From positions 806,001 through 870,000 of the forward strand of contig NZ_FXTE01000001.1 in assembly GCF_900182615.1 (NCBI RefSeq): a DNA stretch of 64,000 nucleotides, read 5' to 3'. Shown piece by piece: positions 45,587-57,943 of this stretch. The position numbers and the translations under genes are program-made. This DNA comes from Ruegeria faecimaris. Lineage in GTDB: Bacteria > Pseudomonadota > Alphaproteobacteria > Rhodobacterales > Rhodobacteraceae. How positions within the stretch are numbered: position 1 is the stretch's first letter; each line of letters opens with the position of its first letter. Under the pieces are notes generated by a model that worked only from the letters and a program-made list of their open reading frames with translations, was not told the DNA's origin and did not search any database.

Positions 45587-46990
45587 TTACCCGGCCAGCG
45601 AAGGCAGGTACAGAACGATGCCCGGAAAGGCGACCAGCAGCGCAATCGTCACGGCGTCGGCGATGAAAAACGGCGTCACGCCCTTGAACACGTCCTGAAC
45701 GCTCAGATCAGGGCGGACGCCGGCAACGACAAAGCAATTCAAACCGATCGGTGGCGTGATCAGGCAGAACTCGGCCATTTTCACCACCAAAATACCAAAC
45801 CAGATGGCGCACATCGGACCGGACATCCCAAACGTACTTTCCGCAGCGGTGACGGCCTCGCCCCCGTTCAGCGCCATAACTGCCGGATAGACAACCGGCA
45901 GAGTCAGCAATAGCATCCCGATGGCATCCATGAACATGCCGAGCACCGCATAGGCCAGCAGGATGCAGATCAGGATCAGCATGGGTGACATTGTCAGCGA
46001 CGTGATCCAGTCGGAAAACGCGCTTGGCAAATCGGCGAAACCCAGGAACCTGACATAGATCAGCACGCCCCAGATGATCGAAAAGATCATCGCGGTCAGT
46101 TTGGCGGTCTCAAGCAGTGCGGATTTCAACTCTGCCCATCTCATGCCGTGGAACAGCGCGAAGCAGAACACGATAAAGGCACCGATTGCCCCGCCTTCAG
46201 TTGGCGTGCCCCAGGCTTTTTCACCAAACGGGTTATAGACGAAGCAGATGATGATCAGGATCACCGCAACAATCGGTAGGGCACCAGGCAGCGCGGCAAA
46301 ACGCTGTTTCCAAGTAAAGCCAGTGACCGGCGGGCCGACATTTTTGAACACAACGGCGATGCCGACGATCAGCAGACCATAGATAACCGCCGAAAACGCT
46401 CCCGGTATGAACCCGGCGAGCAGCAGTTTGCCCACATCCTGCTCTACGATGATCGCATAAATCACAAGGATCGCCGAGGGCGGGATCAGTGAGGCCAAAG
46501 TGCCACCTGCAGCAACTACGCCCGCCGCAAATTGTTTGTTGTACCCGACCTTCAGCATTTCCGGGATCGCGATCCGGGCAAATACCGCAGATGTCGCGAC
46601 CGATGCCCCCGAGACCGCAGCAAAACCAGCGGTGGCGAACACGGTTGCGACCGCAAGCCCACCCGGAACCCATGCTACCCAGCGCTTGGCAGCCTCGAAC
46701 AGCGCGCGCGTCAGGCCTGCGTAGTAGGCAAGGTAACCGATCAGGATAAAGGTCGGAATCAGGCTGAGCGTATGGGCTGCAACCTTGGAATGCGGCACTT
46801 GCCCTGCGGTTTTTACCGCAACGGTCAGCGCCTTGCCGAACCGGTCGGGATCATATCCGAATTTGGCCCAGAATATCCAAACCAGACCGATCAGCCCCGC
46901 CAAAGCCGCGGCAAAAGCCACACGCATTCCGGTGATAACCAGAACCAGCAGACCACCGGTGACCCAAAGGCCAATCTCAATCGAGTCCAT
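45587..46990 (-). CDS. dctM: TRAP transporter large permease (DctM type)
   Basis: A 467-residue protein with about 12 helices, the transport-conducting subunit. Characteristic parts are VAAGGTLASLIPPSAILVIYA and EFCLITPPIGLNCFVVAG. TRAP systems use a sodium gradient and a periplasmic binding protein to take up organic acids or similar small molecules. It is 3 bases downstream of the small permease gene. Confidence 0.94.
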   Translation of the reverse strand: MDSIEIGLWVTGGLLVLVITGMRVAFAAALAGLIGLVWIFWAKFGYDPDRFGKALTVAVKTAGQVPHSKVAAHTLSLIPTFILIGYLAYYAGLTRALFEAAKRWVAWVPGGLAVATVFATAGFAAVSGASVATSAVFARIAIPEMLKVGYNKQFAAGVVAAGGTLASLIPPSAILVIYAIIVEQDVGKLLLAGFIPGAFSAVIYGLLIVGIAVVFKNVGPPVTGFTWKQRFAALPGALPIVAVILIIICFVYNPFGEKAWGTPTEGGAIGAFIVFCFALFHGMRWAELKSALLETAKLTAMIFSIIWGVLIYVRFLGFADLPSAFSDWITSLTMSPMLILICILLAYAVLGMFMDAIGMLLLTLPVVYPAVMALNGGEAVTAAESTFGMSGPMCAIWFGILVVKMAEFCLITPPIGLNCFVVAGVRPDLSVQDVFKGVTPFFIADAVTIALLVAFPGIVLYLPSLAG

Positions 46991-46993
46991 TTA

Positions 46994-47623
46994 CTAGTCC
47001 TGCCCTTCGAATTGTTCGGCTTCAGCGGCAGCCTGCGCAGCAGCGTCCTGTATCATCGGCACCGCAACTGGGTTTTGTAGGCCCAGCACAAAGGCCCGTC
47101 CATAACCCCAGATTTGCAGCACAAGCCGCAAGCAAAGTACCGAAAACGCAATAGGTGCCAGTAACTTGGCAGGCCAGAGCGGGATGCCAATGTCGATCGA
47201 GCTGTCCCGGCTCCACAGAGGTGCGCCAAAGTCGAATGATCTGTCGAAATGGGACCAGCTGCCCCAGACCAATGCCAACATGAGCACCAGGATGAGAACG
47301 ACCGAAATCAACTCGAACAGCCACAAAGCCCGTCCGTGTAGCCGCGAAATGACAATATCCATCCGGATATGGCCCCCATCGCGTTGTACGTAAGAGATAC
47401 CTAGAAACGCAATCAAAGGCATGGCTTGCTCGATCCAATCGACATAGCCCGGCAATGGCGCGTTATAGGCGTTGCGCCCGCTCACCGAGACAACTGCCAG
47501 CACCATTAACCCGAACACGGCAATTCCGCTGATCAGTGCAAGCGTACGCTCGGCCCTTAACAGCAGCTGGTCCAGCCTGCTCAGACGGCTATCATCTGCA
47601 AGCACCGTCGCCTGTCCTGCCAT
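46994..47623 (-). CDS. dctQ: TRAP transporter small permease (DctQ type)
   Basis: A 209-residue protein with four hydrophobic segments; the DctQ core includes YVDWIEQAMPLIAFLGISYVQR and DIGIPLWPAKLLAPIAFSVL. Its C-terminal tail is acidic and Ala-rich. It joins DctM to form the membrane part. Separated by a 65-base gap with a strong hairpin from the binding-protein gene. Confidence 0.92.
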   Translation of the reverse strand: MAGQATVLADDSRLSRLDQLLLRAERTLALISGIAVFGLMVLAVVSVSGRNAYNAPLPGYVDWIEQAMPLIAFLGISYVQRDGGHIRMDIVISRLHGRALWLFELISVVLILVLMLALVWGSWSHFDRSFDFGAPLWSRDSSIDIGIPLWPAKLLAPIAFSVLCLRLVLQIWGYGRAFVLGLQNPVAVPMIQDAAAQAAAEAEQFEGQD

Positions 47624-47654
47624 TCCGCTGGCCCTTTCTGTATTGGAATCAGTG

Positions 47655-47680
47655 TCCGGGTACCGCGCTGGGTACCCGGA
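47655..47680 (-). terminator. Intercistronic hairpin between dctP and dctQ
   Basis: Perfect 10-bp stem TCCGGGTACC/GGTACCCGGA with a 6-base loop, lying between the binding-protein and permease genes. It has no T run. It probably protects the upstream dctP message or partly ends transcription, raising binding protein over permease. Confidence 0.65.
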
Positions 47681-47688
47681 ACGCGTGA

Positions 47689-48705
47689 TCAGTTCCCGCC
47701 ACGCTGTTGTTTCAGCGTCAGTTGAACAAGATCATATAGATCCTGCGCAGGCAGACCCTGCGCGGACATGTCAGCGATCCACTGCTCGCGGATCGGATCA
47801 GCAGCCTTGGTGCGGAATTCCTCCAGCACGGCCTCGTCGATCTGAACTTTCTGCACGCCTTTTTCTGTCAACACACCATCCCACTGCTCCAGCAGACCGC
47901 CGTAATTGGCGAGATAATGGGCAATGGCTTCGTCGACAGAACTGTTAAGCGCTTCGCGATGTTCCGCAGGCAGTGCTTCGTAGGCGTCGACATTGACCAC
48001 AACCGGACAGTTTACAGTGCCGGGGTTCAGGTTGGCCGTCCACCAGTCGGCTTCGTTGATAGTGCCGAAAGACAAATGTGCGTGCTGAGCAAAGGCCACT
48101 GTATCAACTACACCGGATTCCATCGCATTAAACGCCTCGGTCGCGGGCACCGATGTTGGAACACCGCCAACGGCCTCAAACGCCTTACCCAGCCCGCCGG
48201 TCGCACGTACACGCATGCCGTCAAAATCGGCAAGCGTTGAGCGCGGATCACCGGTTCCAACGATATTATACTGGGGCATTGGCGACGTCATGATGATCCG
48301 GGCATTCCACTGAGCCATCTCATCCTTAACGGCGGGATGATCATATACAGCGTGGCTGACGGCCACCTCTTCTTCCAAATTGTTCACACCCAGGAACGGC
48401 AGTTCAAGTACAGTGATCGCCCGATTTTTGTCGCGGTGATAGCCTGCGCAGAACTGCGCCATCTCGAATGCACCGATCTCAATCCCGTCCAGATTCTCTT
48501 TCGGCTTTGACAGCCCGCCATAGCTGACATTGATCGTGAATTCGCCACCGGTTTTTTCGCTGACCAGTTCAGCCAGTTTCTCGACATGTTCGGTAAAGGC
48601 CCGGCGTTTGCCCCAGACCGAAGCATTCCATTCTGTTGCTGCAGCTTCGGTAACGAATGCAACAGTCAGGGCGGCGACGGCGGCACCGCTCAACATTTTA
48701 GTCAT
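47689..48705 (-). CDS. dctP: TRAP transporter substrate-binding protein (DctP type)
   Basis: A 338-residue periplasmic protein from ATG 48705, preceded by GGGAGAAA. The signal peptide ends AAAT. TRAP-family features include the Arg in GMRVRATGGLGKAFEAVGG and the segment VPATEAFNAMESGVVDTVA. The motif mix does not fix the ligand; a carboxylate is likely. First gene of a dctP-dctQ-dctM operon. Confidence 0.93.
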   Translation of the reverse strand: MTKMLSGAAVAALTVAFVTEAAATEWNASVWGKRRAFTEHVEKLAELVSEKTGGEFTINVSYGGLSKPKENLDGIEIGAFEMAQFCAGYHRDKNRAITVLELPFLGVNNLEEEVAVSHAVYDHPAVKDEMAQWNARIIMTSPMPQYNIVGTGDPRSTLADFDGMRVRATGGLGKAFEAVGGVPTSVPATEAFNAMESGVVDTVAFAQHAHLSFGTINEADWWTANLNPGTVNCPVVVNVDAYEALPAEHREALNSSVDEAIAHYLANYGGLLEQWDGVLTEKGVQKVQIDEAVLEEFRTKAADPIREQWIADMSAQGLPAQDLYDLVQLTLKQQRGGN

Positions 48706-49133
48706 AGTGATTTCTCCCATTGATGCGCCCCCTTTTTTGGGTCGCTTGAGCGTAAAGCTAGCGCCAACATCGATATGTGCCAACCCCTGCCAGACCACCC
48801 ACCAAAATCTGCAAACCGCCCGCCAGCGCTAACAATCATAAGGTGAATATGAAATGTGTAAATTTCACGGGCAAGCACTTTGAAAACAGTGAAAATGTGA
48901 TTAACATCTATATTATTGTTTTAAATATATTTTTTTGATACCTAACGATTTCCTTTACAATTCCCTCAAAGAGATTGAAATTTATTAACAAATAAACCCT
49001 GCTATTTCTGTAATTTATTTCTTTGTTTTCTGATCTCCGTATTATCCTGCATCGGGAGGAAACAGGTCGACATTGCCTGTTCAGCGGGCAAGATTGTCCC
49101 AGTGAATTTAAGTCCAGAGGGAGGAACCTCAGA
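48706..49133. other. Divergent intergenic region with AT-rich core, dctP/acs
   Basis: 428 bases without a gene. From 48840 to 49020 the sequence is strongly AT-rich, unlike the rest of the window. It must hold the acs promoter and the dctP promoter. GAAAT (48851-48855) and ATTTC (48862-48866) form a weak inverted repeat. I cannot name a regulator. Confidence 0.5.
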
Positions 49134-51098
49134 ATGACAACCGCTGCTCAGGCAGATGCCAAAGTTTATCCGCCATCCGCAGAAATTTCAGCGCGTGCGC
49201 ATGTCGATGCCAAGAAATACGGCGAAATGTACACGGCTTCTATAAACGACCCCGTTGCATTCTGGGGCGAACAGGGCAAACGCGTTGACTGGATCAAACC
49301 CTATACCCAAGTGAAAGACGTCAGCTATGATTTGGGCTCGGTCGGGATCAACTGGTATGCGGATGGCACTCTGAACGTTTCAGCCAACTGCCTGGATCGT
49401 CATCTGAATACACGCGGCGATCAGACTGCGATCATCTGGGAACCTGATGACCCGAATGAACCCGCCCAACACATCACCTATGCCGAACTGCACCGCCGCA
49501 CCTGCCGGATGGCGAATATCCTGGTTTCCATGGGCGTGCGCAAAGGCGACCGTGTAGTCATTTATCTTCCGATGATCCCCGAGGCTGCATATGCCATGCT
49601 GGCGTGCGCACGTATCGGCGCAATCCACTCGATTGTTTTTGCAGGGTTTTCCCCTGATGCCCTGGCTGCACGCGTCAACGGATGCGACGCCAAGGTTCTG
49701 ATTACAGCTGATGAGGCCCCTCGCGGCGGCCGTAAGACACCGTTGAAGTCAAACGCAGACGCGGCCCTGCTGCACTGCAAGGACACGGTGAAATGCTTGG
49801 TTGTCAAGCGTACCAACGGCCAGACCACATGGATCGACGGGCGCGACTACGACTATAACGAAATGGCGCTCGAGGCGGATGACTATTGCGCGCCTGCGGA
49901 AATGGACGCCGAAGACCCTCTGTTCATTCTGTATACCTCCGGGTCGACCGGTCAGCCGAAAGGTGTGGTGCATACCACCGGCGGATATCTGGTCTATGCG
50001 GCAATGACGCATGAGATCACCTTCGATTACCATGAAGGCGACGTCTATTGGTGTACCGCCGATGTCGGTTGGGTGACCGGCCACAGCTATATCGTCTATG
50101 GCCCGCTGGCCAATGGCGCGACCACGCTGATGTTCGAAGGTGTTCCGACCTATCCGGATGCATCCCGCTTTTGGCAGGTCTGTGAAAAGCACAAGGTCAA
50201 TCAATTCTACACGGCCCCTACCGCTTTGCGCGCCCTGATGGGGCAAGGCAATGAATGGGTCGAGAAATGCGATCTGAGCGATCTGCGCACGCTGGGCACT
50301 GTGGGTGAGCCGATCAACCCGGAAGCGTGGAACTGGTACAATGACGTTGTCGGCGGTGGGCGCTGCCCGATCGTGGACACCTGGTGGCAAACCGAAACCG
50401 GTGGTCACCTGATGACCCCCCTGCCCGGCGCCCACGCAATGAAGCCCGGCTCGGCTATGAAGCCTTTCTTTGGTATTCAGCCCGTTGTTCTTGACCCGCA
50501 GTCGGGGGTCGAGATCGACGGCAACGGAGTCGAAGGCGTGCTGTGCATCAAGGACAGCTGGCCGGGTCAGATGCGTACGGTCTGGGGCGATCATGAACGG
50601 TTCGAGAAGACTTATTTCTCGGACTACAAAGGCTACTACTTCACCGGTGACGGCTGCCGCCGGGACGAGGATGGCGATTACTGGATCACCGGACGTGTGG
50701 ACGATGTGATCAACGTCTCGGGGCACCGCATGGGTACGGCCGAGGTCGAAAGCGCTCTGGTGGCACATGCTGCCGTGGCCGAGGCTGCGGTTGTGGGCTA
50801 TCCCCATGATATCAAGGGGCAAGGCATCTATTGCTATGTCACCTTGATGAATGATCGCGAACCCTCGGACGAGCTTGTGAAAGAGCTGCGCACCTGGGTT
50901 CGGACCGAGATCGGACCGATTGCCAGCCCGGATGTGATCCAATGGGCTCCTGGCCTGCCAAAAACCCGCTCGGGCAAGATCATGCGCCGTATCCTGCGTA
51001 AGATCGCCGAGAATGATTTTGGATCGCTCGGTGACACATCGACCCTGGCTGATCCGTCCGTGGTCGACAACTTGATCGAAAACCGCGCAAGCAAGTGA
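49134..51098 (+). CDS. acs: Acetyl-CoA synthetase
   Basis: A 654-residue AMP-forming ligase (acetate + ATP + CoA to acetyl-CoA + AMP + PPi). Motifs: [28 protein letters not shown] and the C-terminal lysine loop [16 protein letters not shown], where the Lys is the usual target of acetylation control. ATG 49134 follows GAGGGAGGAA; the longer reading from 49023 is not supported. It opens a cluster that continues with adk and a symporter. Confidence 0.96.
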
Positions 51099-51105
51099 GG
51101 ATGTG

Positions 51106-51789
51106 ATGGACGCTGCCACGATCACTACACCCACCGTACTGATCCTTCTCGGCCCCCCGGGCGCCGGGAAGGGTACACAGGCCCGTATGCTCGAAGACAA
51201 ATTCGGGCTTGTCCAACTCAGCACGGGTGACCTGTTACGGGCGGCAGTTGCCGCGGGAACCGAAGCCGGAAAAGCCGCCAAAGCTGTCATGGAGGCGGGT
51301 GACCTGGTCAGTGACGATATCGTAATTGCAATCCTGCGGGATCGTCTTGCCGAACCGGACTGCGCCAAGGGCGTCATTCTGGACGGCTTCCCCCGCACCA
51401 CGGTTCAGGCACAGGCGCTGGACGCGCTGCTGTCAGAGACCGGTCAGCAGATCAACGCAGCCATCAGTCTTGAGGTTGAAGACGCTGAAATGGTGATCCG
51501 TATTTCCGGCCGTTACACATGTGCCGGATGTGGCGAAGGGTTCCATGATCGGTTCAAAACGCCCGCAGTCGAAGGCAAATGCGACAAATGCGGCAAGACC
51601 GAGTTCAAGCGCCGCGCAGATGACAATGCTGAAACCGTCGCCTCACGGCTGGCTGCCTATCATGCGCAGACCGCGCCGCTGATCACTTATTACCAAGACC
51701 ATGGCGTTCTGAAAGGTCTGAACGCCATGGGCAATATCGAAGACATCGCCGGCAATCTGGAACGGATCGTCAGCGACACAATGAACTAG
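51106..51789 (+). CDS. adk: Adenylate kinase with zinc-type LID
   Basis: A 227-residue AMP kinase. P-loop GPPGAGKGTQ is near the start and the AMP-binding GFPRTTVQAQAL follows. The LID has CAGCGEGFHDRF and CDKCGKTEF, four cysteines fit for zinc. Placement 7 bases after acs suggests it recycles the AMP made by acetyl-CoA synthetase to ADP. Alphaproteobacteria often also carry adk in the ribosomal operon, so this may be a second, dedicated copy. Confidence 0.92.
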   Translation: MDAATITTPTVLILLGPPGAGKGTQARMLEDKFGLVQLSTGDLLRAAVAAGTEAGKAAKAVMEAGDLVSDDIVIAILRDRLAEPDCAKGVILDGFPRTTVQAQALDALLSETGQQINAAISLEVEDAEMVIRISGRYTCAGCGEGFHDRFKTPAVEGKCDKCGKTEFKRRADDNAETVASRLAAYHAQTAPLITYYQDHGVLKGLNAMGNIEDIAGNLERIVSDTMN

Positions 51790-51973
51790 GGGAATATGGC
51801 CCGCCCTCAATAAGGGCCGAATTCCTAAAGGAAAACTTCAAAGGACCCGCTCCGGCGGACCAGAGAAGTCTTGCCTGATGCCACCTGGCATCAAGCATAT
51901 CGAAAAGTGGCCCCGCGCGCTGGAGGGTTAGGACAACGGGCCGCTCAAAGAGGAAGCGAAGGAGGAACCCGCG
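51790..51973 (+). other. Leader region between adk and the DUF4212 gene
   Basis: A 184-base gap with a small hairpin (GATGCC 51877-51882, ACCT loop, GGCATC 51887-51892). The sequence AAGGAGGAA ahead of the next start is a strong ribosome site. No gene is seen; it may hold a second promoter for the symporter genes. Confidence 0.4.
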
Positions 51974-52258
51974 ATGGCGGATCAATCAACACACTCCGCG
52001 CAGACTGCCGAAGCCGATAAGGGCTATTGGCAGGCCAACCTGCGTCTTATCTACATCAGCCTGGTGATCTGGGCGCTGGTGTCGTTTGGATTCGGCATTT
52101 TGCTGCGTCCACTTCTGTCCGGCATTTCCGTCGGCGGAACCGATCTCGGCTTTTGGTTCGCGCAACAGGGATCCATCTTGGTCTTTCTGCTGCTGATCTT
52201 CAACTACGCCTGGCGGATGAACAAGCTAGACGCTGAATACGGCGTTGAGGAGGAGTAA
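51974..52258 (+). CDS. DUF4212 small subunit-like membrane protein
   Basis: A 94-residue protein with two helices (about 27-50 and 60-82), the DUF4212 family. These are found directly before a particular group of sodium:solute symporters (VC_2705-like) and are thought to be their partner subunit. The TAA is 6 bases from the symporter start. Confidence 0.9.
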   Translation: MADQSTHSAQTAEADKGYWQANLRLIYISLVIWALVSFGFGILLRPLLSGISVGGTDLGFWFAQQGSILVFLLLIFNYAWRMNKLDAEYGVEEE

Positions 52259-52264
52259 GGCCCT

Positions 52265-54049
52265 ATGGACCAGTTTACCATCAACCTGCTGTTTGTGGGC
52301 GCGTCCTTTGCGCTTTACATCGGCATCGCGATCTGGGCCCGTGCTGGGTCCACATCAGAATTCTACGCCGCCGGTCGCGGCGTTCACCCGGTCACCAACG
52401 GTATGGCGACAGCGGCAGACTGGATGTCTGCGGCCTCGTTCATCTCGATGGCGGGCCTCATCGCCTTTACCGGTTATGACAACTCGTCCTTCCTGATGGG
52501 TTGGACCGGTGGTTATGTGCTGCTGGCGCTGCTTCTTGCCCCTTACCTGCGTAAGTTCGGCAAGTTCACCGTGTCAGAGTTCATCGGCGACCGCTTTTAC
52601 AGCCAGACCGCGCGTATCGTGGCGGTGATCTGTCTGATCGTAGCGTCTGTGACCTACGTGATCGGCCAGATGACCGGCGTTGGCGTAGCTTTTGGCCGCT
52701 TCCTTGAAGTGTCAAACACCACCGGGTTGTTAATTGGTGCAGCCGTTGTTTTCGCCTACGCGGTGTTTGGGGGGATGAAGGGCGTGACCTACACACAGGT
52801 CGCTCAGTACTGCGTGCTGATCACCGCCTACACAATCCCAGCCATCTTTATTTCCCTGCAACTGACTGGCAATCCGGTTCCGGCTCTGGGTCTGTTTGGT
52901 GATACCGCCAGCGGTGAACCGCTGCTGACCAAGCTGGATGCGATCGTGACCGAGTTGGGCTTTAACGAATACACCGCCCACCACTCGGACACGCTGAACA
53001 TGGTGCTGTTCACGCTGTCGCTGATGATCGGTACGGCCGGTCTGCCGCACGTAATCATGCGTTTCTTCACCGTGCCGAAAGTGGCTGATGCCCGCTGGTC
53101 TGCCGGTTGGGCGCTGGTGTTCATCGCACTGCTTTACCTGACCGCCCCTGCGGTTGGCGCAATGGCCCGTCTAAACATCAGTGACATGATGTGGCCAAAT
53201 GGCGGCATCGAAGGTGGCGCCGTATCCGTCGAAGATATCGACAACGACGCCCGTTATGACTGGATGGCTACATGGAAGAAAACCGGCCTGCTGGACTGGG
53301 AAGACAAGAACGGCGACGGCAAGATCCAGTACTATAACGACAAGAATGCCGACATGCAGGCGCTTGCGGAAGAGAAGGGCTGGGTCGGAAACGAGCTGAC
53401 CAAGTTCAACCGTGACATCCTGGTTCTGGCCAACCCCGAAATTGCCAACCTGCCGGGTTGGGTGATCGGTCTGGTCGCTGCCGGTGGTCTTGCGGCTGCT
53501 CTGTCGACCGCTGCGGGCCTGTTGCTGGCGATCTCGTCCGCTGTGTCACACGACCTGATCAAAGGCGCGATCAACCCGCAGATTTCGGAAAAATCCGAGC
53601 TTCTGTCGGCGCGGATCGCAATGGGCGTGGCCATTGTTGTGGCGACATATCTGGGCCTGAACCCTCCAGGTTTTGCAGCGCAGACCGTTGCCCTGGCGTT
53701 TGGTCTGGCAGCTGCCTCGATCTTCCCGGCGCTGATGATGGGGATCTTCTCGACCCGCATCAACAACACCGGTGCGGTTGCTGGTATGCTGGCTGGTCTG
53801 ACTGTGACCCTGGTCTACATCTTCCTGCACAAGGGCTGGTTGTTCATTCCGGATACCAACTCGTTCACGGATGCTGATCCTCTGTTGGGTACGATCAAGT
53901 CGACTTCGTTCGGCGCAATCGGTGCATTGGTCAACTTCACTGTCGCCTATGTGGTGGCTGGCATGACCAAAGAAACCCCGCAAGAGATCAAGGATCTGGT
54001 CGAAAGCGTCCGCATTCCCCGTGGCGCGGGTGCCGCTCAGGATCACTGA
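52265..54049 (+). CDS. Sodium:solute symporter, acetate/cation type (VC_2705-like)
   Basis: A 594-residue, about 13-helix SSS-family symporter. Together with acs upstream, acetate or another short monocarboxylate is the best guess for substrate. Residues 311-400 form a long soluble insert; within it DKNGDGKIQYYN (347-358) resembles an EF-hand calcium loop. The C-terminal helices contain GLAAALSTAAGLLLAISSAVSHDL, a typical SSS segment. It is paired with DUF4212 and ended by a strong terminator. Confidence 0.9.
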   Translation: MDQFTINLLFVGASFALYIGIAIWARAGSTSEFYAAGRGVHPVTNGMATAADWMSAASFISMAGLIAFTGYDNSSFLMGWTGGYVLLALLLAPYLRKFGKFTVSEFIGDRFYSQTARIVAVICLIVASVTYVIGQMTGVGVAFGRFLEVSNTTGLLIGAAVVFAYAVFGGMKGVTYTQVAQYCVLITAYTIPAIFISLQLTGNPVPALGLFGDTASGEPLLTKLDAIVTELGFNEYTAHHSDTLNMVLFTLSLMIGTAGLPHVIMRFFTVPKVADARWSAGWALVFIALLYLTAPAVGAMARLNISDMMWPNGGIEGGAVSVEDIDNDARYDWMATWKKTGLLDWEDKNGDGKIQYYNDKNADMQALAEEKGWVGNELTKFNRDILVLANPEIANLPGWVIGLVAAGGLAAALSTAAGLLLAISSAVSHDLIKGAINPQISEKSELLSARIAMGVAIVVATYLGLNPPGFAAQTVALAFGLAAASIFPALMMGIFSTRINNTGAVAGMLAGLTVTLVYIFLHKGWLFIPDTNSFTDADPLLGTIKSTSFGAIGALVNFTVAYVVAGMTKETPQEIKDLVESVRIPRGAGAAQDH

Positions 54050-54105
54050 GTAGAGATGCGGCCCCTGAGCACCTTGCCAAAGGCCGTTTCTTTCGACTGA
54101 CTACT

Positions 54106-54136
54106 CCCGCCCGGCATTCCACCGGGCGGGATTTTT
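54106..54136 (+). terminator. Rho-independent terminator after the symporter
   Basis: Perfect 9-bp stem CCCGCCCGG/CCGGGCGGG with a 7-base loop and a following ATTTTT. It separates the symporter transcript from the DUF294 gene, though some read-through may occur. Confidence 0.9.
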
Positions 54137-54160
54137 CGAATAGAAACCGAGGAGTATCCG

Positions 54161-55984
54161 ATGCCCCTGCCCCAAGCCGAGATCACGCGGTTTCTGAAAT
54201 CCGTTCACCCTTATGACGCCCTGCCCGCCGATGATTTGGCAACGCTGTCTGATCAGATCGAAGTTTGGGAGGTCGAAGAAGGATCCCCGGTGTATCAACT
54301 GGGCGCGCCCCTGCCCGGCGTATTCGTGATTTACGAAGGACAGGTTGAAATCACTGACAGGAACGGCGCGATTGTCTCTCATCTGGGGCTGCGCAATTCT
54401 TTCGGGGAACGCGGTTTGCTGAAAGACGGTAAAGCCGCGACCAAAGCGCAGGCGCACGCAAACTCGGTTTTTCTGGTGATCCCGCCCAACCTGATCCGAG
54501 ACCTCATTGATGAACATGAAATCGTCGCCAAATTCTTTGATCGGACCCGCACGGAACGCTCCAGCCCCCAAAGCCTTGCAACCAGCGCTATCGACGTTCT
54601 GATGGCACATAACCCCGCAACCTGCCCCCCTAATACCACCGTTCGCGAAGCGGCGCAGATGATGAGGGACAGACATATTTCCTCTCTCTGCATCACCGAG
54701 GGGGACATTCTTTTGGGGATCGCCACCTTACGAGATATCTCGGGCAAATACGTTGCCGATGGGATGTCTGTGGATACCCCTGTATCGGCAATAATGACGG
54801 CAAACCCGGTGACGCTGTCGCCGTCGGATATCGGATCGGATGTTCTTCACATCATGATGGAGCGCGGCATCGGCCATATTCCGGTATCCGAAGCTGGGCG
54901 TCTAGTCGGAATTGTCACGCAGACAGACCTGACCCACTATCAGGCGGTCAATTCCGCCGAGTTGGTGCGCCGGATAGCAAATGCGCAAACCGCGCAGCAG
55001 ATGGCAGAAGTGACCGAAGAGATTCCCCGGCTTCTGGTCCAGCTTGTCGCTGCCGGAAATCGACACGAGATCGTTACACGCCTGATTACCGATATCGCCG
55101 ACACAGCCACCAGACGTTTGCTGGCAATGGCGGAAAAACAGCTTGGACCACCACCTGTGCCTTACCTATGGCTGGCTTGCGGATCGCAGGGACGACAGGA
55201 ACAAACCGGGGTGTCGGATCAGGACAACTGCTTGATGCTGGATGACAAAGTAACCGATGACGACATGCCATATTTCCAGACACTGGCAAAAATCGTGTCG
55301 GACGGGCTGGATAAATGTGGGTACTTTTATTGCCCGGGCGACATGATGGCGACAAATCCACGCTGGTGCCAACCGGTAAGTGTCTGGCGTGATTATTTTC
55401 GCGGGTGGATCGCCAAACCAAACCCCGAGGCGCAGATGCTGGCCTCGGTCATGTTCGACCTGCGCCCCATTGGCGGCGCATTTCACCTGTTCGATGACCT
55501 GCAGGCCGAAACGCTGGCCGCGGCCCAAACGAATTCAATCTTTGTGGCGCATATGATCTCGAACTCGTTAAAGCACACGCCGCCGCTGGGCCTGTTACGC
55601 GGGTTTGCCACGGTACGCTCGGGTGAGCATCGCAACACGCTGGATCTAAAGCATAATGGCGTTGTGCCTGTGGTTGACCTGGCCCGGATATACAGCCTTC
55701 AGGGGCAACTGTCCCAGGCCAATACACGTGCCCGCCTGAAAGCAGCTGGGGCGGCAGGCGTCCTCAGCCCCTCAGGTACCCGCGACCTGCTGGACGCTTA
55801 CGATCTGATCGCCGAAACGCGGCTGGACCATCAGGCCCGTCTGGTGAAAGGCAACAAGAAGCCGGACAATTTCCTGCCCCCTTCCGATCTTTCGGACTTT
55901 GAGCGAAGTCATCTGCGAGATGCCTTTGTCGTGGTAAAAACAATGCAATCGGCGGTCGGCCACGGTAAAGGAATGCTGGGCTAA
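54161..55984 (+). CDS. cNMP-binding, CBS and DUF294 nucleotidyltransferase protein
   Basis: A 607-residue multidomain protein: a cyclic-nucleotide-binding fold (about 10-125), a CBS pair (about 140-260), then the DUF294 nucleotidyltransferase of GlnD type with GSQGRQE (341-347) and Asp353, Asp355 in VSDQDNC. A C-terminal helical domain (about 460-600) follows. The catalytic residues look intact. Such proteins sit beside acetate symporters in many bacteria, but their target is unknown. The sequence suggests nucleotide addition to a protein, controlled by cNMP and adenine nucleotides. Confidence 0.88.
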   Translation: MPLPQAEITRFLKSVHPYDALPADDLATLSDQIEVWEVEEGSPVYQLGAPLPGVFVIYEGQVEITDRNGAIVSHLGLRNSFGERGLLKDGKAATKAQAHANSVFLVIPPNLIRDLIDEHEIVAKFFDRTRTERSSPQSLATSAIDVLMAHNPATCPPNTTVREAAQMMRDRHISSLCITEGDILLGIATLRDISGKYVADGMSVDTPVSAIMTANPVTLSPSDIGSDVLHIMMERGIGHIPVSEAGRLVGIVTQTDLTHYQAVNSAELVRRIANAQTAQQMAEVTEEIPRLLVQLVAAGNRHEIVTRLITDIADTATRRLLAMAEKQLGPPPVPYLWLACGSQGRQEQTGVSDQDNCLMLDDKVTDDDMPYFQTLAKIVSDGLDKCGYFYCPGDMMATNPRWCQPVSVWRDYFRGWIAKPNPEAQMLASVMFDLRPIGGAFHLFDDLQAETLAAAQTNSIFVAHMISNSLKHTPPLGLLRGFATVRSGEHRNTLDLKHNGVVPVVDLARIYSLQGQLSQANTRARLKAAGAAGVLSPSGTRDLLDAYDLIAETRLDHQARLVKGNKKPDNFLPPSDLSDFERSHLRDAFVVVKTMQSAVGHGKGMLG

Positions 55985-56010
55985 ACCCTCAGGAACCTTG
56001 GAGAGTATTC

Positions 56011-56529
56011 ATGTTCTTAGAACTGATCGGCACGATATTTGCAGGCGTCGCCCTAGCCGGCATCGTGATGGTGATCAACAAACTGACAGGTGGACGCCTG
56101 CCTCGTTGGTCCGCACCAGTCGCGGCGGGCATTGGCATGATCGGGATGACGATCAACAGCGAGTATTCATGGTTTGACCGCACGCGCGATACGCTTCCAG
56201 ATGGTCTGATCATCATTCAAGAGGTCGAAAGCCGCGCTTTGTACCGTCCCTGGACCTATGCGATGCCCTTTGTTGATCGTTTTGCCGCAATCGACACCCT
56301 ATCTGTGCGCACCAATGACCAAGTGCCTGAGCAGCGCCTCGTTGAACTGTATTTCTTTGGTCGTTGGGCACCGGTTTCAAAATTGCCGGTCGCTGTGGAT
56401 TGCGACAAGAACCAACGCGCCAATCTGGCGGATGGGGCAGAGTTTGGTGACAACGGCCAGTTGCTGAACGCAGATTGGGTAACAGGCTCTACCAACGATC
56501 CGATCATCGAGGCCACTTGCGGAGTGTAA
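56011..56529 (+). CDS. Membrane protein of unknown function
   Basis: A 172-residue protein with two hydrophobic segments near the start (about 3-23 and 34-52) and a soluble part of about 115 residues with two cysteines (near 131 and 170). No family is recognised. It is 26 bases after the DUF294 gene and directly before an exonuclease gene (1-base gap), so it belongs to the same unit. Confidence 0.75.
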   Translation: MFLELIGTIFAGVALAGIVMVINKLTGGRLPRWSAPVAAGIGMIGMTINSEYSWFDRTRDTLPDGLIIIQEVESRALYRPWTYAMPFVDRFAAIDTLSVRTNDQVPEQRLVELYFFGRWAPVSKLPVAVDCDKNQRANLADGAEFGDNGQLLNADWVTGSTNDPIIEATCGV

Positions 56530-56530
56530 C

Positions 56531-57943
56531 ATGCTGACCCGATTAAGCCTGCGCCTGCGGATTTTCCTCTTCTTCTGCCTGCTGGCGGTCGGCGGGGTTG
56601 CCGTCAGCTCGGTTGCGCTTTGGGTCAGCTACAGGCGAGCGGCGGATCCGGCCCTTTTCGACGCGTTCATCTTTGCAGAGATCGTCATCGGGTTCGGTCT
56701 GCTGGCCCTGATCGCCGCTGTCTGGCTATTGTTCGACGATAATGTCGCCAAGCCGATCGAAAGGCTTTCCGCTGAACTGCGCGCACGAGCGCATGCCGGT
56801 GTCAGCCGCGACCTCGATCTGCAAGCCGCGCGGTATCTTGGCGACCTGGCCCCTGCGGCTGCCGGTCTGGCCAACCAACTGTCCGACAAGACCATGGGCG
56901 TGGCAGAGGCTGTCGCTGCTGAAACCGAGCATCTGGCTGTGGAACAGCAAAGGCTTAGGGCGCTTTTGACTGAAATTCCTGTAGCCATATTGCTGGCTAG
57001 CCCCTCTCACAGGCTCGTTTTGTATGACGGACAGGCGGCCGAGGTTCTGGCACAGATTTCGCATCCACGCCTGAATGCGCCACTGTTCGATTACTTCCAG
57101 CCAGACGCGCTGCAGAAAGCCTATGCCAAACTGGCCAAGACCGGGATGGAGGCATCCTGTTCGCTGACCAGCATTGATGGGGCGCAGACCTATTCAGCCC
57201 GCATGAAACCGCTGGGGGAAACTTCCGGCTATATGCTGATCCTAGATGACAGCGCCGCCAATATAGCGCCTGAGGCTGCCAGACCTCTGGTCTATGACTT
57301 TGGTTTGCTGAACACATCCACCGACCAATCATTCGAGACATTGCCTCTGCGCGAGCTTTGTTTTGTTGTCTTCGACACCGAAACCACAGGCCTGCTGCCG
57401 CACAAAGACGAGATCGTCCAGATCGGCGCAGTCCGTGTGGTAAATGGACGGATGGTCGAAGGCGAAAGGCTGGATATGCTGGTGAACCCGGTCATGCCGA
57501 TCCCTGCCGCCTCGACCAAGGTTCACAAGATCACGGATCGAATGGTCGAAGGCGCGCCGGAAATCGCCGAAGCCGGGCGTATCTTTCACGAATTCGCGCG
57601 AAATGCCGTAATCGTGGCGCATAATGCACCTTTTGATATGGCGTTTCTGCGACGCCACGCCGACCGTATGAAAGTTGAGTGGACGCATCCCGTACTGGAT
57701 ACGGTCCTGCTATCAGCGGTCCTGTTCGGCGCCAGCGACACGCACACTTTGGACGCGCTGTGCGAACGGCTGGACATTACAATTCCGCATGAGCTGCGCC
57801 ATACGGCATTGGGTGATGCAGTTGCCACCGCCGAGGCGCTGGTTCGGATGCTTCCGATGCTGCAAGCGCGCGGGATGAATACGTTTGGCGAGGTCATCGA
57901 AGCAACCCGCCGGCACGGTCGTCTGCTTGAGGACCTGAACTGA
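56531..57943 (+). CDS. Membrane-tethered DEDDh 3'-5' exonuclease with sensor-like N-terminus
   Basis: A 470-residue protein. Two N-terminal helices (about 10-32 and 48-68) are followed by a HAMP-like linker (70-120), a PAS-like domain (about 140-245) and a DnaQ/PolC-type exonuclease domain. Catalytic residues are Asp282 and Glu284 (FDTETTG), Asp369 (HNAPFDMAFL), His424 and Asp429 (HTALGDA). A membrane sensor fused to an exonuclease is unusual; a role in second-messenger or modified-protein turnover is possible, DNA repair less so. Confidence 0.85.
   Translation: MLTRLSLRLRIFLFFCLLAVGGVAVSSVALWVSYRRAADPALFDAFIFAEIVIGFGLLALIAAVWLLFDDNVAKPIERLSAELRARAHAGVSRDLDLQAARYLGDLAPAAAGLANQLSDKTMGVAEAVAAETEHLAVEQQRLRALLTEIPVAILLASPSHRLVLYDGQAAEVLAQISHPRLNAPLFDYFQPDALQKAYAKLAKTGMEASCSLTSIDGAQTYSARMKPLGETSGYMLILDDSAANIAPEAARPLVYDFGLLNTSTDQSFETLPLRELCFVVFDTETTGLLPHKDEIVQIGAVRVVNGRMVEGERLDMLVNPVMPIPAASTKVHKITDRMVEGAPEIAEAGRIFHEFARNAVIVAHNAPFDMAFLRRHADRMKVEWTHPVLDTVLLSAVLFGASDTHTLDALCERLDITIPHELRHTALGDAVATAEALVRMLPMLQARGMNTFGEVIEATRRHGRLLEDLN

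Follow-up and report, generated by a model that had tools for sequence, protein, structure and literature searches.

A DUF294 nucleotidyltransferase and a DEDDh exonuclease linked across the Pseudomonadota: a possible writer and eraser of protein nucleotidylylation

Background

The window analyzed here is a stretch of 64,000 nucleotides of the Ruegeria faecimaris genome (G000:C1:806001-870000; contig NZ_FXTE01000001.1), and it carries seven genes on the forward strand, encoding an acetate--CoA ligase (Acs), an adenylate kinase (Adk), a DUF4212 symporter subunit, a Na+/solute symporter, a DUF294 nucleotidyltransferase (NTase), a small membrane protein and a membrane-anchored DEDDh exonuclease. 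A first-pass annotation had proposed this order, with which both the coordinates and the family models agree, and had suggested that the NTase adds a nucleotide to a target and the exonuclease removes it. We report that the NTase and the exonuclease form a unit that is adjacent or fused in many Pseudomonadota, and we weigh the possibility that they are writer and eraser of a nucleotide mark.

Protein nucleotidylylation controls nitrogen assimilation through GlnE and GlnD, the latter combining an NTase writer, an HD hydrolase eraser and ACT sensing domains. For carbon uptake no comparable established system is known to us, though no exhaustive search was made.

Results

The locus and its conserved gene order

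The features of the locus are collected in Table 1. Short gaps separate acs from adk (4 bases), DUF4212 from the symporter (6), DUF294 from the small protein (26) and the small protein from the exonuclease (1), and longer ones lie upstream of DUF4212 (184 bases) and of DUF294 (111). The closest named relatives of the window DUF294 protein are from Ruegeria, with up to 86% identity. Among 80 named loci of this clade the small protein comes next after DUF294 in all 80, and the membrane exonuclease then follows in 78; in the remaining two (L263, L274) the contig is short and soon runs out. The order symporter-DUF294-small protein-exonuclease is kept in 73 of the 80, and all seven genes stand in order in 40; acs was seen in 41, adk in 59, DUF4212 in 72 and the VC_2705 symporter in 73, counts that are limited by contig ends and by the fetched length.

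Table 1. Genes and features of the cluster, with positions in the window
Feature	Position	Strand	Basis
acs, AMP-forming acetate--CoA ligase	49134..51098	+	ATG at 49134; TIGR02188 1013.5 bits
adk, adenylate kinase with lid	51103..51789	+	NF001380 above cut-off
DUF4212 small symporter subunit	51974..52258	+	PF13937; TIGR03647 112.3 bits, cut-off 26.05
VC_2705-family Na+/solute symporter (SLC5/SSS)	52265..54049	+	TIGR03648 821.7 bits, cut-off 320.75
Terminator-like hairpin, symporter-DUF294 gap	54105..54131	+	10 pairs, 9 of them G-C, then TTTTT
DUF294 protein, proposed writer	54161..55984	+	Pfam: cNMP, two CBS, DUF294, DUF294_C
NTase motif GS-X10-D-x-D, G341 to D355	55181..55225	+	sequence motif
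Small membrane protein	56011..56529	+	no Pfam or NCBIfam match
Membrane-anchored DEDDh exonuclease, proposed eraser	56531..57943	+	RNase_T 130.9 bits
DEDDh exonuclease domain	57365..57838	+	PF00929, residues 279-436

The order of the seven genes had at first been read as functional; a terminator-like hairpin between the symporter and DUF294 divides the cluster. This hairpin is the strongest of 15 terminator-like sites in the region, where shuffled sequences give 8.7 ± 3.2, and 42 of 73 relatives likewise have a hairpin with a T-run between these two genes. The same scan of four other junctions gave 0/71, 1/58, 0/79 and 0/77; as the gaps at such control junctions are shorter, the fairest comparison is the adk-DUF4212 junction (median 70 bases, the 1/58 case). 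Since the 29 bases between the end of the hairpin and the DUF294 start are too few to hold a full promoter, we infer that partial termination may hold the regulators at a lower level than the transporter.

Linkage and fusion of the NTase and the exonuclease

The wider survey covered 199 Pseudomonadota genomes of completeness at least 95, with genes taken as open frames detected by our own profiles and not from annotation. Some match to PF03445, in many cases weak, was present in 155 of these genomes; the survey set consists of the listed strong matches (at least 116 bits), that is 113 full DUF294 genes in 78 genomes, and leaves aside unlisted matches and the weak ones, which were taken as GlnD by length. 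The DUF294 gene of G161, which is in two fragments, counts once among the 113 and twice in the sets of 98 pairs and 114 alignment rows used below.

Of the 113 DUF294 genes, 93 (71 genomes) have a DEDDh-type exonuclease gene on their own strand no more than 1 kilobase (kb) away, downstream in 92 cases and upstream in one. Four more DUF294 genes are fused to an exonuclease (G012, G159, G170, G188), bringing the adjacent or fused total to 97/113; a pair or fusion is present in 74 of the 199 genomes. The core of the first-pass idea, an NTase with an exonuclease partner, is borne out by these counts and by the predicted resemblance of the NTase to GlnE and DrrA described below. Pairing was found for all 36 DUF294 genes with a neighboring VC_2705 symporter, for 21 of 25 with an ActP-type symporter, and for 40 of 52 with neither. 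A search with a fused protein returned 4090 matches, and all 120 listed combine RNase_T, CBS, DUF294 and DUF294_C in a single chain; in an alignment of 43 fused proteins neither catalytic set varies.

The sequence distances of the partners are correlated (r 0.748 over 98 DUF294-exonuclease pairs), and shuffling of partners inside the 19 genomes with several pairs gave r 0.426 ± 0.044, with 0.748 reached in none of 500 trials. This shows that the pair is inherited as a unit, which by itself is no proof of function. Together with the adjacency and the fusions, it supports the conclusion that the two genes belong together.

The symporter side and other neighbors

Either symporter type occurs within 6 kb of 61 of the 113 DUF294 genes and neither occurs near 52. 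Our profile detected 60 VC_2705 symporters, against 61 genomes by the NCBIfam cut-off; 37 of the 60 have DUF294 within 8 kb, 34 of these with the exonuclease, whereas among the 23 without DUF294 nearby a single one has the exonuclease and 21 have DUF4212 within 3 kb. By these counts the exonuclease accompanies DUF294, and symporter plus DUF4212 make up a unit of their own. The co-occurrence envisaged at first is thus borne out for the DUF294-exonuclease pair and not for the symporter, and the module is not tied to acetate uptake. The window symporter itself scores 153.3 bits with the ActP model TIGR02711, far below the cut-off of 1099.25, so that acetate can be named only as its presumed substrate. 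At residue 347 of the symporter (window 53303) lies an EF-hand-like loop, DKNGDGKI; the pattern D-x-[DN]-x-D-[GNK]-x-[ILV] matches 43 of the 60 VC_2705 symporters, a count without a chance control, suggesting possible Ca2+ binding in a Na+ symporter.

The small membrane protein, initially described as a two-helix member of the DUF294 unit, does not keep that place. It has a hydrophobic N-terminal part, in which a simple hydropathy scan detected the first segment alone, and a C-terminal domain of about 110 residues; C131 and C170 are present without exception in the 27 aligned rows. Seven of its 17 survey homologues stand beside DUF294, in the family of the window, and the other ten lie 11-165 bases from a VC_2705 symporter; in four of those ten (G074, G128, G136, G152) the contig either shows no DUF294 or has it at a distance of more than 16 kb. 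We take the protein for a symporter partner with a probably outward domain.

Of the DUF294 genes, 29 (in 26 genomes) have an SLC5-type kinase-like gene within 6 kb, and the two such kinase-like genes that were scanned both contain HisKA and HATPase_c. Where no SSS gene is present within 6 kb, the commonest neighbor of the pairs is a BCCT transporter, with 6 members among the 82 of 165 candidates scanned; aminotransferase I/II, GGDEF, response regulator and periplasmic-binding families follow with 3 each (25 of 76 families listed). The idea of one conserved non-symporter neighbor for isolated pairs was rejected on these figures, BCCT being first among the families listed with only 6 members, and the BCCT neighbors hint that the module serves more than one transporter class. 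One isolated pair next to a BCCT transporter was confirmed at L071:6596-8185.

The DUF294 protein

The DUF294 protein comprises a cyclic nucleotide (cNMP)-like domain (residues 37-119), a CBS pair (about 145-260), the NTase domain (287-423) and DUF294_C (460-600). The NTase motif G341-S342-Q-G-R-Q-E347 with D353 and D355, reported as intact in the first reading, is confirmed, and GS-X10-D-x-D is intact in 112 of the 113 survey genes; D433, which is Asp or Glu in aligned relatives, is a probable third catalytic acid. The exception, in G190, reads SVQNN for SDQDN, and its exonuclease has Asn at the last catalytic Asp, a lone instance of joint decay of NTase and exonuclease.

No solved DUF294 structure was found: of 66 sequence matches, the 60 listed cover the CBS or the cNMP part and none of these the NTase proper, one match to IMP dehydrogenase extending to residue 296. 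An AlphaFold model (mean predicted local distance difference test score 83.7) structurally matches both halves of GlnE, and also DrrA, known protein AMPylases; the NTase half and DUF294_C align with these over about 300 residues at 9-14% identity, and the predicted structure has an NTase fold followed by a helical substrate domain of the protein AMPylase type. CCA-adding or poly(A) enzymes were absent from the structural matches listed for the NTase half, which is not proof, as CBS and cyclic-nucleotide entries filled these lists and may have kept other NTase families out. In a published classification DUF294_C is grouped with HEPN-type and other C-terminal domains of NTases (PMC3710099).

The two CBS repeats carry GIATLRD and GIVTQTD, with G186, T189 and G250 conserved in the family alignment. 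The Asp of G-h-x-T-x-x-D in both repeats is what we take to be an adenosine-nucleotide-binding signature; the CBS part has this motif, and its structural matches include AcuB with AMP, ADP or ATP, which makes adenosine-nucleotide binding plausible. In CRP-type domains a Glu and an Arg are expected in the cNMP phosphate-binding cassette. The window protein has G82-E83 and an Ala at position 93, where Arg is commonest (33 of 114 rows), and both positions vary; because the cassette Glu and Arg are not conserved in the family, the cNMP control supposed earlier is doubtful. Two survey proteins (L093:9094-11649 in G187; L078:9403-11961 in G098) have DUF294 fused to Cache and PAS sensors, which suggests a receptor-type nucleotidyltransferase.

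The exonuclease

The exonuclease has two hydrophobic segments (about 5-34 and 40-73), a linker region and the exonuclease domain, in agreement with its first description as membrane-tethered. The DEDDh set is complete in the window (D282, E284, D369, H424, D429). In 97 paired exonucleases the set is D-E-D-H-D in 59 (a tally of 60 includes the window sequence twice), has Glu in motif II in 34, and is aberrant in 4 (G190, G050, G097, G086). The motif-II Glu, of the HYRRIE type in L159, L154, L169 and others, perhaps marks a distinct substrate class; as a marker of symporter association the Asp/Glu difference was rejected, since by eye both forms occur with and without symporters. Three receptor-like exonucleases of about 700 residues (L067:6210-8336, L090:14413-16611, L141:15306-17363) have a long, sensor-like N-terminal part, in which HisKA and HATPase gave no match at E 0.01.

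Discussion

A possible writer and eraser of a nucleotide mark

Several facts on the pair are already in print. In Pseudomonas putida, pp_0354 (DUF294/CBS-type) and pp_0353 (RNase_T exonuclease) form one operon, the PAO1 relatives adjoin actP, and the Pseudomonas pairs are under MxtR/ErdR (CrbS/R) (PMC9927547, PMC5715377, PMC8402216, PMC9765439). ErdR binds the pp_0354 promoter and acetate induces pp_0354 (PMC8402216), and in P. aeruginosa growth on propionate raises PA3232-PA3235 about 16-fold (PMC9765439). Growth of P. putida on pyruvate is delayed by deletion of pp_0353, not of pp_0354, and is also impaired by deletion of actP-I (PMC9927547). Loss of the exonuclease, unlike loss of DUF294, hence resembles loss of ActP; we read this asymmetry as that of an inhibitory mark lifted by the exonuclease, with which it fits.

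From the gene order, linkage, fusion, catalytic residues and predicted fold, which are direct results, we propose, with somewhat less than even confidence, that the two proteins are writer and eraser in a reversible nucleotidylylation that controls Na+-coupled monocarboxylate uptake, GlnD-like in logic. The DUF294 enzyme would transfer a nucleoside monophosphate (NMP) from the triphosphate onto a protein, for which a symporter subunit or an SLC5-type sensor kinase are candidates. The CBS pair may sense adenine nucleotides, the AMP/ATP ratio being altered by Acs and Adk, and the mark would lower uptake of acetate, pyruvate and propionate when the adenylate energy or carbon state is wrong. The exonuclease, probably controlled by its own membrane and linker region, would hydrolyze the phosphodiester, release 5'-NMP and restore monocarboxylate uptake. 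Fused exonuclease-CBS-DUF294 proteins are as expected for writer and eraser of one mark. The broader notion that such paired or fused DEDDh exonucleases are a new class of de-nucleotidylylating erasers, the fusion being a self-contained energy-sensing switch of Na+ symporters, is more doubtful, if conceivable.

Precedents exist for the chemistry, in that snake venom phosphodiesterase cuts the phosphodiester of nucleotidylylated side chains (PMC7641770) and that SelO substrates are deAMPylated by a ribonuclease, RNase Z, albeit one with a metallo-hydrolase and not a DEDDh fold (PMC12663964).

A number of observations weigh against the proposal. RNase T is a 3' exonuclease of the DEDD kind. It had no deAMPylase activity on SelO substrates (PMC12663964); deAMPylation is therefore not general to such nucleases, and an eraser of the DEDDh type would be a novelty that calls for proof. 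Genetic data are likewise adverse: the pp_0354 deletion grows normally on succinate, acetate and pyruvate, and the pp_0353 deletion on 20 mM acetate (PMC9927547); PFLU5625 mutants of P. fluorescens are without phenotype (PMC9927547, PMC5715377, PMC8402216, PMC9765439); deletion of the symporter PA3234 leaves growth on propionate normal, and PA3233-PA3235 fall about 2-fold after propionate addition (PMC9765439), so that the transporter role is not always visible. DUF4212 had been named as a possible target, and a comparison between 34 sequences that have DUF294 within 8 kb and 25 that lack it yielded no tyrosine signature: the tyrosine of the C-terminal D..YGV varies (Y/H/F), the N-terminal YW is in both sets, and the idea of DUF4212 as target through a conserved tyrosine was dropped. 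The exonuclease of G050 (by C1:3677887) lacks the catalytic residues while adjoining an intact NTase, those of G097 and G086 are truncated or aberrant, and the Cache/PAS-DUF294 proteins have no exonuclease within 6 kb. Altogether 16 of the 113 DUF294 genes are without an adjacent or fused exonuclease. Seven of these have one within 6 kb, on the same strand (G145, G189, G057) or the opposite (G034, G050, G086, G170); for two (G152, whose region ends before the downstream neighbor, and G061) a fetch or contig edge hides the neighbor, and the DUF294 gene of G089 is on a 6.5-kb contig. Finally, operon linkage alone can explain the co-divergence.

Alternative explanations

This last point favors a co-transcribed but functionally separate exonuclease, a housekeeping or regulatory nuclease riding with DUF294, and the motif-II Glu of 34/97 paired exonucleases, which may differ in substrate, also suits it; the four fused survey genes with 120 fused relatives among the matches listed, and the retention of pairs in 40/52 loci lacking either symporter type, make it quite unlikely in our view. 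Tuning at the RNA level, whereby nucleotides added to RNA 3' ends by DUF294 are trimmed off by the exonuclease, or mRNAs of transporter and acetate genes are simply degraded by the exonuclease acting alone, we consider unlikely, though it is to be taken seriously: the exonuclease fold is the canonical nucleic-acid DEDDh one, the Pol III epsilon subunit and RNase T ranking high in the structural comparison of the fused model, and the P. putida authors themselves proposed mRNA degradation for the pp_0353 effect, leaving other mechanisms open (PMC9927547). It has to contend with the GlnE and DrrA matches of the NTase half, listed without a CCA-adding or poly(A) enzyme, and does not by itself explain why deletion of the NTase is silent and that of the exonuclease is not.

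The G-S...D-x-D motif is common to messenger-making Pol-beta NTases, and dinucleotides are cut by DEDD nucleases such as Orn, so that DUF294 could make a di- or oligonucleotide signal that the exonuclease degrades, as Orn does with linear dinucleotides; CBS domains would suit a nucleotide signal. The alignment with protein AMPylases over NTase half and DUF294_C, and the lack of a recurring receptor-like neighbor besides sensor kinases and transporters, render such a second messenger improbable. Least probable by far is a two-way DUF294 enzyme that, like GlnE, both adds and removes the mark, leaving the exonuclease to clear released nucleotides or a polymeric tail: Pfam finds one NTase domain per protein, and a fused nuclease would be unnecessary.

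Relationship to known systems and significance

The fused relatives share with GlnD, in the proposed scheme, a Pol-beta NTase writer combined with a metal-dependent hydrolase as eraser and with domains that sense small molecules, but have a DEDDh nuclease and a CBS pair in place of HD and ACT; in the window, moreover, there are two separate genes and the nuclease is membrane-anchored. Pfam finds cNMP, CBS, DUF294 and DUF294_C and neither HD nor ACT, and the system is GlnD-like in proposed logic alone. The likeness to GlnE and DrrA/SidM is a predicted one that leaves the cNMP/CBS part outside the match. MntA-HepT (MNT/HEPN) shares GSX10DXD and transfers AMP to a protein tyrosine, from which snake venom phosphodiesterase can remove it; it differs in being a toxin-antitoxin pair with a minimal NTase of 139 residues, and the accessible text mentions no exonuclease partner (PMC7641770). 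The symporter of the Pseudomonas systems is of ActP type and that of the window of VC_2705 type, the accessible reports on the former do not mention the membrane protein with the Cys pair (PMC9927547, PMC5715377, PMC8402216, PMC9765439), and for pp_0353 its authors found no secretion signal (PMC9927547), unlike the membrane-anchored exonuclease here.

The DUF294-exonuclease association, its regulation and a guess of nucleotidylation for the NTase are already published; in the open-access literature we found no paper on the writer-eraser pairing or the exonuclease-CBS-DUF294 fusion, the linkage statistics, the GlnE-like fold or the eraser reading of the mutants, nor any on DUF4212. Were the proposal true, the DEDDh nuclease fold would join the few known erasers of nucleotidylylation, a widespread pair without an assigned function would gain one, the puzzling Pseudomonas phenotypes would be explained, and pair and fusion would represent a GlnD-like system for carbon uptake, switching Na+-coupled nutrient symporters on and off. 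The pair makes such a possible switch of nutrient uptake testable.

Additional observations on the locus

In its own genome the window acs is the single gene above the AcsA cut-off, adk is one of two full copies (the second at G000:C16:55129-55689), RNase_T genes number three, and besides the one full DUF294 gene a frame of 939 residues matches weakly and is presumably GlnD. A second adk inside the acs cluster occurs in 59 of the 80 named relatives, yet at only 7 of the 113 phylum DUF294 loci (6 of them in the family of the window), and acs lies within 6 kb of DUF294 at 28 of the 113. At L124 (G089:C118, 1445-3850, minus strand), on a 6.5-kb contig, a single frame adjoining DUF294 matches acs as well as the membrane exonuclease in its N-terminal part, and is either an unusual fusion or an assembly error. 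Divergent from the cluster, the TRAP transporter genes DctP, DctQ and DctM occupy 45587-48798 on the minus strand of the window.

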